From positions 1-64,000 of the forward strand of contig NZ_QNRF01000002.1 of assembly GCF_003314975.1 (NCBI RefSeq): a DNA stretch of 64,000 bases, written 5' to 3'. The position numbers and the translations under genes are program-made. Numbering within the stretch: position 1 is the first letter of the stretch; each line of letters begins with the position of its first letter. This stretch comes from Marinomonas aquiplantarum. GTDB taxonomy: Bacteria; Pseudomonadota; Gammaproteobacteria; Pseudomonadales; Marinomonadaceae. Shown here in pieces: positions 44,111 through 46,903 of the stretch. A model generated the notes under the pieces. That model made no database searches. It worked only from the letters and a program-made list of their open reading frames with translations, and was not told where the DNA came from.

Positions 44111-44139
44111 AGCCAACATCCTTCGTTGTGATGTTGGCT
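44111..44139. terminator. Hairpin between ppx and the 115-aa gene
   Basis: Perfect 10-bp arms AGCCAACATC (44111-44120) / GATGTTGGCT (44130-44139), overlapping the stop of the convergent minus-strand gene. A weak A/T context surrounds it, likely a shared terminator. Confidence 0.6.
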
Positions 44140-44485
44140 AGTTCAGTTTTTCGATTGTGCGGTACAAGGCCGCCACTTCTTCCCTTTGTAGACCACTGAC
44201 TCGTGACATTCGGCCAATGCTGGAAGTGACTTGTACGGATTCCTTACCTTCTTCTTCTTTCTCCTGTTTATCTCCTTTGGTCTCATCTAATTGAGATTGG
44301 GAGGAGGCTAAAAGTTGTTTCGCTTGTTCAGATAAGTCTACTGCTGGTTCCCGCTCTTGTTGTGATGAGGTTTGCGGGCGCACTTCTACCGCCGGCTGTA
44401 TTGTCGGTATGGTAAGGCGATTTAGTGGTATGGATGAGATTGACACAGTAGTACCTCGGTAGCCATCTAAGACACAACTTTGCAA
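44138..44485 (-). CDS. Hypothetical low-complexity protein, 115 aa
   Basis: 115 residues, not recognised. The N-terminal third is Ser/Ile/Thr/Pro-containing, the middle is rich in Gln, Ser, Glu and Lys (KGDKQEKEEEGKE) and predicted disordered, and the C terminus ends in a probable amphipathic helix, LQREEVAALYRTIEKLN. No signal peptide or membrane segment. It is divergent from the tubulin-like gene across 333 bp and convergent with ppx. Reading frame is clean but support beyond ORF integrity is limited. Confidence 0.55.
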   Translation of the reverse strand: MQSCVLDGYRGTTVSISSIPLNRLTIPTIQPAVEVRPQTSSQQEREPAVDLSEQAKQLLASSQSQLDETKGDKQEKEEEGKESVQVTSSIGRMSRVSGLQREEVAALYRTIEKLN

Positions 44486-44818: not shown

Positions 44819-46849
44819 ATGAGTCAAGACAACCTGCCAATAGAACACCTCTATTATACGGAACCGAATCTAGAGAAAATCTTAGAAAATTTGGACGTTG
44901 TTCGCGGTCAGATTCACCCACCGGTGACGACAGAAGGACCACAGAATGTTGATCAGGTATTTCCGTCAGTCTGTCTGATTGGCTTAGGGCGTTGTGGCTC
45001 TAATATCGCTTTGGATGTGGCGTCTTTGGTATACGATGCGCGTGCAAACTACATGCGTGAAGTGGAAAACCAAGAGCTGCTGGACACCGAACGAGAGTTC
45101 CGTCCGATGCGCTGGATTCGCAAGCATTTACCCATCGAAGGCAAAGATGGCTTCAAGCCAGTATTCTTAATTGAACCGATCGTCTTACTGGGTGACTTAG
45201 ATAAAGACATTGAAGGACGTATTCGTTTTTCAAACCAAGAAGGCCGTGAGCAGTTCTTGGAAGAGTACAAAAAATTACAAATCATGGACTTATCCGAAGT
45301 GCATGCTGGTGGTGCTGGTAACGCGCCTATCCTAGGTCAATACCTAGCGAAAATCATTCTAAATAAAGATACGTCGACCTTCCGTAACGAAGATTGGAAA
45401 CACCTGCATTCTTATTTGGTGGATTCTTGTGGTATCAAAGCCAACCAATCTCGCTTGTACTTCTACATCTTTAGTGCGGGTGGTGGTACAGGTTCAGGTA
45501 TGGCCTCTGAATTTGGTTTGGCTCAGCAATTCTCCTATCTTAGTAAAACCTTTGATTACCGTTCTGACCAATCGCAATTGGTGGATAAGCGTCACAGCTT
45601 TGTCTTTGAGCCTATTTTTACCTCTGGTATTTGTATCCTACCGAATATTTCCGGTAAGAACGTGGAAATCTCAGAAGCCTTGCACATCAATGCTGGTCGT
45701 CTGTTGACGAAATACATCTCGGAAGAATGGAATTTCTCTTACAACGAAGAGCGTGAAGAAGACGAAGTGCCTGCCGATGTGATGGAACGTATTCGTCCTT
45801 GGAACTCCATGATGCTAATTTCAAACGATATTATGCGTTATGCGGAAGAAGAAGATGGTGGCGATGCCGATAGTATTGATGTGAATACTATGGAGAAATA
45901 CGCGAACCAATATATCTCTCAGCAGATCTTCAACATCCTGACGGCTCAAGCGGTGACAACGGATTACGATGAGGATTATTTCCGTCGTGCGGGGATTGAT
46001 ATTTCCGAAACCATTCGTCTTGATGCCAATGACTTGTTTATGAGTTTGGCTGGCCCAGTTGCTGTCGCATATGCCGAGAGCGTAGTGGGTCCTGGTGTTC
46101 ATCAGGATATGGTCGACATTGATGACCTGTTCTGCCGTTCTATTGAGTTGCCTCACTTTAATGAAGACACATCAGCGATTGAAGGGGTGAGTGTATTGCC
46201 TGTTGAATCGGATCGTTACCGTCAAGCCATTAAAGATTTCCGTAAGAGTGGCTACGACATTTCTAAATTAAGTGATTTGCACTTCTTTAAGAACTGTTCC
46301 TCCATTGTGTCGATCATCTCTTTACCACGCGACTTCAAGTTGTCTTTCACTGCACTAAACCGCTTGAAAATGCACTTGAACCGTCTGTGTCCAAACACCA
46401 CGCTTAAGCGTTACGCCTTGGTGATTGGTGCGTCAGCGAATCTATCATTAACTACCCTGATTGCTAAGAGTCCATGTTTGAGTGATGACTTCTTAACCCT
46501 TATGGTGGCTTACATGAAGCGTTGTTTCGCAAAAGATGATTACCGTTACACGGATGAAGTGGATCAAGCGATCATTGATATGATTCAAATGGAAGACTTT
46601 GATGACAGCCTGGTCGATAAATACTTCAATAGCCACGAGAATCCAGCCAAAATTTTGGATACCAACTGGTACGCGATCAAGCCAATGTATGAGAAGAAGT
46701 ACCGTGAGTTGATCGACAATACGCAGCAGTTCGTTTCCATTAATGACATTCGTTTGGACATTGATAACGTCAGAAACGCCATTAAATATCTGCGTGAAAT
46801 TTACCGTCACCGTATCAGTAAGACTAACGTCCTTACCCTTAACGGCTAA
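44819..46849 (+). CDS. Tubulin/FtsZ-superfamily protein (stand-alone, 676 aa)
   Basis: 676 residues. The tubulin signature is exact, SAGGGTGSGMASEFG (GGGTGSG at 221-227), preceded by an N-terminal Rossmann-like glycine loop CLIGLGRCGSNIALDV (55-60). Later MLISNDIMRY (Asn336-Asp337) resembles the FtsZ PND-x-LL segment, and IRLDANDLFMSLAG (399-412) resembles the T7 loop NxDxxD, keeping both acidic residues (Asp402, Asp405) with Arg400 for Asn. It is much longer than FtsZ, with large insertions and an extra C-terminal helical part. No membrane segment. It is likely a GTP-binding, possibly polymerising protein related to the Tubulin_2/FtsZ-like families. Cellular role unknown; not the division FtsZ. 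Confidence 0.8.
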   Translation: MSQDNLPIEHLYYTEPNLEKILENLDVVRGQIHPPVTTEGPQNVDQVFPSVCLIGLGRCGSNIALDVASLVYDARANYMREVENQELLDTEREFRPMRWIRKHLPIEGKDGFKPVFLIEPIVLLGDLDKDIEGRIRFSNQEGREQFLEEYKKLQIMDLSEVHAGGAGNAPILGQYLAKIILNKDTSTFRNEDWKHLHSYLVDSCGIKANQSRLYFYIFSAGGGTGSGMASEFGLAQQFSYLSKTFDYRSDQSQLVDKRHSFVFEPIFTSGICILPNISGKNVEISEALHINAGRLLTKYISEEWNFSYNEEREEDEVPADVMERIRPWNSMMLISNDIMRYAEEEDGGDADSIDVNTMEKYANQYISQQIFNILTAQAVTTDYDEDYFRRAGIDISETIRLDANDLFMSLAGPVAVAYAESVVGPGVHQDMVDIDDLFCRSIELPHFNEDTSAIEGVSVLPVESDRYRQAIKDFRKSGYDISKLSDLHFFKNCSSIVSIISLPRDFKLSFTALNRLKMHLNRLCPNTTLKRYALVIGASANLSLTTLIAKSPCLSDDFLTLMVAYMKRCFAKDDYRYTDEVDQAIIDMIQMEDFDDSLVDKYFNSHENPAKILDTNWYAIKPMYEKKYRELIDNTQQFVSINDIRLDIDNVRNAIKYLREIYRHRISKTNVLTLNG

Positions 46850-46866
46850 GGGTTCTGAGCTTATTG

Positions 46867-46903
46867 AAAACGCCTGCTGGCTCACCAGCAGGCGTTTTTT
46901 TAT
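46867..46903 (+). terminator. Terminator after the tubulin-like gene
   Basis: Perfect 14-bp arms, AAAACGCCTGCTGG and its complement, with a four-base loop (46867-46898), followed by a T run. One of the strongest terminators in the window. Confidence 0.95.

Follow-up and report, generated by a model that had tools for sequence, protein, structure and literature searches.

A putative stand-alone tubulin-superfamily protein fitting the FtsZl2 family: signature loops, distribution and possible roles

In FtsZ and tubulin the loops T1 to T6 hold the nucleotide, and the acidic residues of T7 reach the GTP bound by the neighbouring subunit; in FtsZ they serve hydrolysis there. Distant GTPases of the same superfamily are TubZ and PhuZ, the plasmid and phage tubulins. 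The described family that bears most closely on the present protein is FtsZl2 (Makarova and Koonin 2010, PMC2875224; type PFL_1302), which was found by its GGGTG(S/T)G motif. The portion of that paper drawn on here ascribes to FtsZl2 the elements T1, T4, T6, H7 and T7 and a C-terminal region of about 300 residues of mixed alpha/beta character without relatives; the family occurs beside conventional FtsZ, has neither associated genes nor a coiled coil and is limited to Proteobacteria. FtsZl1 is described in the same portion with a coiled coil and with vWA/kinase/GTPase operons. In the legend of Figure 1 of the paper by Makarova and Koonin a Marinomonas sp. follows Chromobacterium violaceum and precedes Pseudomonas fluorescens, and we infer that these three organisms are the FtsZl2 rows. 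A 2023 study of FtsZ/tubulin evolution (PMC9871819) left Tubulin_2 out of its main reconstructions and, in the portion of its text used here, makes no use of the name FtsZl2. Searches of the open-access literature, by names and more broadly, yielded no functional study of FtsZl2; the term FtsZL272E that occurs in it is the name of a mutant, not of this family.

The first-pass annotation had raised the possibility that the protein reported here represents a new cytoskeletal or membrane-remodelling system. The family published in 2010 fits it (PMC2875224): FtsZl2 already has a name, and the gene, though a real puzzle, does not stand for a novel type of system.

The gene and its surroundings

The open reading frame at 44819..46849 (+) of the window (the whole stretch of DNA analysed, 64,000 nucleotides) starts with ATG, is intact and encodes 676 residues; its own genome holds a single copy (1 match). 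The frame itself, its homologues and their conservation mark it as a putative FtsZl2-type tubulin-superfamily protein. It is followed by an intrinsic terminator stem-loop at 46866..46899 (+), with a 15-bp stem, a 4-nt loop, an MFE of -27 kcal/mol and a z of -5.2, which bears out the "own terminator" of the first-pass annotation. This stem-loop was absent from the list of a pattern scanner for terminators, in our guess because the A:U pairs of the stem consume the T run.

To the left lie ppx/gppA (PF02541, 243 bits) and a small open reading frame at 44138-44485 (-), which has no Pfam family and is divergent from the FtsZl2 gene. To the right, Pfam identified a DPBB_1 protein, which we take to be RlpA-like. 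Five window neighbours were run through Pfam, and none of them belongs to a mobile-element family or to the vWA, kinase and GTPase families that accompany FtsZl1. The ordinary FtsZ of the same genome (G000) is encoded on a separate contig, C7. The earlier description of a stand-alone tubulin/FtsZ-superfamily protein in a housekeeping context was right.

Signature loops and family identity

Loops were located by ungapped column comparison of FtsZl2 with a profile built from 48 FtsZ sequences, and their invariance was assessed over 108 distinct sequences, the window's included. For the T1 segment (residues 51-68) and the T4 segment (213-235) the FtsZ counterparts rank first of 318 and 313 places, respectively. 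The T1-like glycine loop GLGRCGSN (residues 55-62; 44981..45004, +) is invariant in 108/108 sequences except for L56 (106/108), and in the reverse view just 1 of 659 FtsZl2 places scores better for the matching FtsZ segment. The T4 tubulin signature GGGTGSG (residues 221-227; 45479..45499, +) is present in 108/108, and the PF00091 match covers residues 214-230. Collinear behind T1 and T4 follow the S6/T6-like segment WNSMMLISNDIMRYA (residues 328-342; 45800..45844, +), H7, and the segment around the T7-like loop RLDAND (residues 400-405; 46016..46033, +), which rank 2nd of 321, 6th of 315 and 12th of 319 places, that is, in the 1-2% tail, in registers chosen by eye. In the first round T4, H7 and T7 had been set off by one or two residues, and H7 and T7 scored only average until they were shifted by that amount. 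The T7-like loop, with D402 and D405, is invariant in 108/108 sequences; R400 occupies the site of the invariant T7 asparagine of FtsZ, likewise in 108/108.

When FtsZl2 and FtsZ were aligned with MAFFT, T1, T3 and T4 fell as expected in 4/4 modes, and the eye-chosen registers of T6, H7 and T7 were reproduced in 0/4. The T3-like loop HAGGAGNAPILGQ (residues 162-174; 45302..45340, +) is the one that MAFFT sets on GAGANP of FtsZ; its ungapped score against the FtsZ profile is non-significant (28 of 317 places are better), and its invariance arises partly by construction, the T3-region peptide HAGGAGNA having served as a seed of the contig scan. The residue numbers given earlier for the motifs proved correct, as G55-L-G-R-C-G60, GGGTGSG at 221-227, N336-D337-I-M339 and R400-L-D-A-N-D405.

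The profile search proposed at the outset points to more than a chance resemblance, as do the first ranks of T1 and T4. Both PF00091 and PF13809 match, at E up to 10, all 43 members of alignment A2, the window protein included (best E 2.7e-4 and 5.8e-4), and these members are related sequences rather than independent votes; the window protein, however, stays under both curated cut-offs, with 15.8 bits against 33 for PF00091 and 12.1 against 27 for PF13809. The match to the FtsZ profile in two hhalign comparisons was weak, with probabilities of 2.0 and 4.5% and P values of 0.024 and 0.009. Pfam, NCBIfam and PHROG searches with the window protein gave no match over cut-off or below E 0.01. A PDB sequence search with the single window protein found no relative, and one with the alignment returned only four chains, all of ribosomal L23 (E 0.5-1.5). 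AlphaFold reached a pLDDT of 42.7 for the full-length protein, in our guess because the homologues differ too little from each other (Neff 1.8); the alignments used for modelling had 43 and 78 rows. This value is too low for the model to be used, so that it speaks neither for nor against a tubulin fold, and the proposed tubulin kinship therefore rests on motifs: what supports the superfamily assignment is a group of signature loops and not a fold.

The C-terminal region (residues 428-676; 46100..46846, +) has 90 invariant positions among residues 430-676. Its AlphaFold model, of low confidence (pLDDT 67.6), contains helices and four short strands, and a fold search with this model gave no match. 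An FtsZ-type C-terminal domain aligned by eye to residues 494-552 found no support: 121 of 200 shuffles were equally good, and 56 of 304 and 186 of 310 places score better. Seven of the nine cysteines of the protein (52, 59, 204, 272, 493, 553 and 569) are invariant in 108/108 sequences and could form a metal or redox site.

By its motifs, its size, its distribution and the lack of common neighbours the 676-residue protein fits FtsZl2. With that family, as far as the portion of its description used here goes, it shares GGGTGSG, the loops T1, T4, T6 and T7, a long C-terminal part for which no relatives were detected, an occurrence in Proteobacteria, a normal FtsZ in the same genome and the lack of a neighbour common across lineages. 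Nothing decisive differs, although members of the Marinomonas/Agarivorans type are without an N-terminal tail of about 35-75 residues. This poorly conserved tail occurs on most homologues outside that type (for example L035-L111), and the difference depends on the start codons chosen. With FtsZl1/Tubulin_2 (PF13809) the protein has the signature loop and the weak matches in common, but it remains below the cut-off of that family, and the FtsZl1 operon families were not among the Pfam-searched neighbours. FtsZ is alike in the T1 and T4 loops and the collinear T6, H7 and T7 segments, and differs in length (the FtsZ encoded in this genome has 410 residues against 676) and in the sub-threshold PF00091 score. 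Unlike TubZ and PhuZ, the window protein has no plasmid or phage relatives in the 72,556 plasmid and 50,697 phage records searched.

Conservation, distribution and neighbours

Across the 108 sequences 277 of 676 columns are invariant and spread over the whole length of the protein; residues 220-227, 334-337 and 400-405 are invariant throughout. The contig scan was seeded by two peptides (residues 123-130 and 162-169), and conservation at these positions is partly by construction. Against a 96%-identical homologue dN is 0.027 and dS 1.73, which gives a dN/dS of 0.015; this is the sole unsaturated pair among 13 compared, the remaining 12 having saturated synonymous sites. The gene is under purifying selection.

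The genome-contig scan kept the best 80 of 292 relatives, with identities of 68-92%. Among these 80, all of them proteobacterial by title, the named relatives belong to Marinomonas, Pseudomonas, Rheinheimera, Colwellia, Marinobacter and Cellvibrio; the closest are Marinomonas (90-92%), which makes that genus the probable source of the window, and Pseudomonas copies show 68-69% along almost the entire protein. Among copies that align from end to end, the most divergent (L013) has 58-59%. The trimmed core of the FtsZ of the own genome was compared with six other families of the order, at 60-68%.

In genome samples taken within the phylum, the host genus had the gene in 21/35 genomes, the window's own among them, and the rest of the order in 1/21. 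A genus of 199 genomes, taken as Pseudomonas because the copy of G534 (L110) branches among named Pseudomonas, has 130 positives, the match being partial or split in two of these. A further family has matches in 11/12 genomes, one of them merely a broken copy: in G784 the FtsZl2 copy is broken up into pieces, of which some contain internal stops (L112-L114, L160-L163), and the other 10 carriers keep long open frames. Two further groups gave 2/6 and 1/3. The phylum sample was positive in 9/398 genomes and the class sample in 2/369, own included. No match was obtained in the phage and plasmid records, and two pattern-seeded scans of viral contigs (1 and 85 pattern matches) contained no relative.

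In a ppx tree of 28 loci the presence of the gene needs 4 changes, and the well-supported (starred) branches force at least 2; the pattern is consistent with one gain and three losses. It should be added that the Paraglaciecola marina copy falls within the Marinomonas group in a quick tree supported by SH-aLRT only, a placement as would be expected after transfer.

Neighbours were surveyed at 89 loci over 8.5 kb, and loci were joined into one arrangement when they shared three or more neighbour clusters; 88 loci fell into 18 arrangements. A family-wide neighbour was not found, the top cluster occurring in no more than 32/89 loci. The neighbours of the Marinomonas lineage include ppx and genes that we take to be antiporter-like; of 12 loci from Marinomonas or the host genus that carry the gene, 11 have ppx upstream, and in L032 ppx lies out of reach. 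Neighbours in the Rheinheimera group include presumed electron-transfer-flavoprotein-like genes, and those in Pseudomonas, by labels that we likewise assume, include rapA-like, MFS-like and dehydrogenase-like genes. Position relative to a GGDEF-EAL gene varies by species, the FtsZl2 gene lying downstream of it in L014-L016, L029 and L030 and upstream in L019-L021 and L023-L026; further Marinomonas or host-genus loci have no GGDEF-EAL gene near.

The small divergent frame at 44138-44485 (-) was considered as a candidate partner. It adjoins ppx in 9/11 host-genus loci with the FtsZl2 gene and in 2/14 without it, as counted by a protein search which diverged copies may escape; the two are therefore often together, and neither needs the other. 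Its cluster is present in 14/89 loci, all of Marinomonas or the host genus, and is therefore not a family-wide partner. Both counts weaken the candidate. In L119 the small frame is followed directly by presumed antiporter-like genes, with no FtsZl2 gene between.

Proposed role and alternatives

We consider the protein, with a probability of roughly 0.6, to be an FtsZl2 member that would act as a GTP-binding and polymer-forming accessory protein distinct from the divisome. By analogy with FtsZ and tubulin biochemistry, its loops would bind GTP through T1-T6. Because D402 and D405 are both kept, hydrolysis is predicted to be coupled to assembly: GTP would be hydrolysed only when subunits dock, and GTP-dependent head-to-tail filaments may form. 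The presence of FtsZ in the same genome and the absence of the gene from close relatives suggest an accessory function, with FtsZl2 acting beside FtsZ and not instead of it, as a dispensable accessory filament or scaffold. Since there is no consistent adjacent partner gene, specificity would reside in its own conserved C-terminal region and the partners would be encoded elsewhere. The cell envelope is the likely site of action, and this is the weakest step of the proposal. Caution comes from R400 in place of the T7 asparagine, which leaves room for a switch that does not polymerise.

Such a switch would be a tubulin-fold GTP sensor that has ceased to polymerise and whose nucleotide state controls partner binding via the C-terminal region. 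The replacement of the T7 asparagine in all 108 sequences speaks for it, as do the invariant columns along the entire length and the failure to detect an FtsZ C-terminal domain, the last judged from shuffles and a low-confidence model. Both T7 aspartates are nevertheless invariant in 108/108, as one would anticipate for residues that take part in hydrolysis in the adjoining subunit, and we regard the non-polymerising switch as unlikely.

Less probable still is a membrane system linked to c-di-GMP, in which filaments at the envelope would organise, or obey, GGDEF-EAL enzymes bound to the membrane. In 35/88 loci the FtsZl2 gene has a GGDEF and/or EAL gene no more than two genes away; both domains are present in 31 of these loci and GGDEF without EAL in 4. 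Pfam on three of the both-domain genes gave Amt-PAS-GGDEF-EAL (L024, Marinomonas) and MHYT-GGDEF-EAL (L084 and L085, Pseudomonas), and the Marinomonas FtsZl2 gene is found on either side of such a gene. In L084, L090 and L096 (Pseudomonas/Ectopseudomonas; L084 of the MHYT type) the GGDEF-EAL gene starts about 60 bp downstream on the same strand. With one representative per arrangement these domains occur in 3/71 near genes against 1/152 far genes; counted by arrangements, however, they are near in 4/18 and farther away in 3/18. GGDEF genes are also common, with 42 matches in the 3.8-Mb own genome and 5 to 62 per genome in the 14 checked. The four genes nearest the window copy have no GGDEF or EAL domain by Pfam, 5/18 loci of the Marinomonas ppx arrangement have none near, and an enzyme-like gene persists in L120 and L124, which lack the FtsZl2 gene. 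The link was noticed post hoc; the adjacency is a lead and not a partner. A more specific version, in which the gammaproteobacterial envelope has a second GTP-driven filament that is independent of FtsZ and coupled to membrane-bound Amt- or MHYT-GGDEF-EAL enzymes, and the seven invariant cysteines add a metal or redox site, seems highly improbable to us; if true, it would mean a tubulin-family cytoskeleton answering to c-di-GMP signalling.

A defence or mobile-element gene resembling a housekeeping gene is already disfavoured and the least probable reading of all: patchy distribution and the Paraglaciecola marina copy inside the Marinomonas group would suit it, but PADLOC gave 0 matches, the searches of phage and plasmid records and the two pattern-seeded viral-contig scans were negative, the five Pfam-searched neighbours are free of mobile-element families and the sequence is near-invariant instead of diversifying.

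The family deserves attention. FtsZl2 is about as conserved as FtsZ itself (the 68-69% to Pseudomonas against 60-68%), and it is common in inferred Pseudomonas; the literature searched has no functional description of it. It is also a single gene, present or absent at the same site in close relatives, which makes a deletion or transfer test straightforward.
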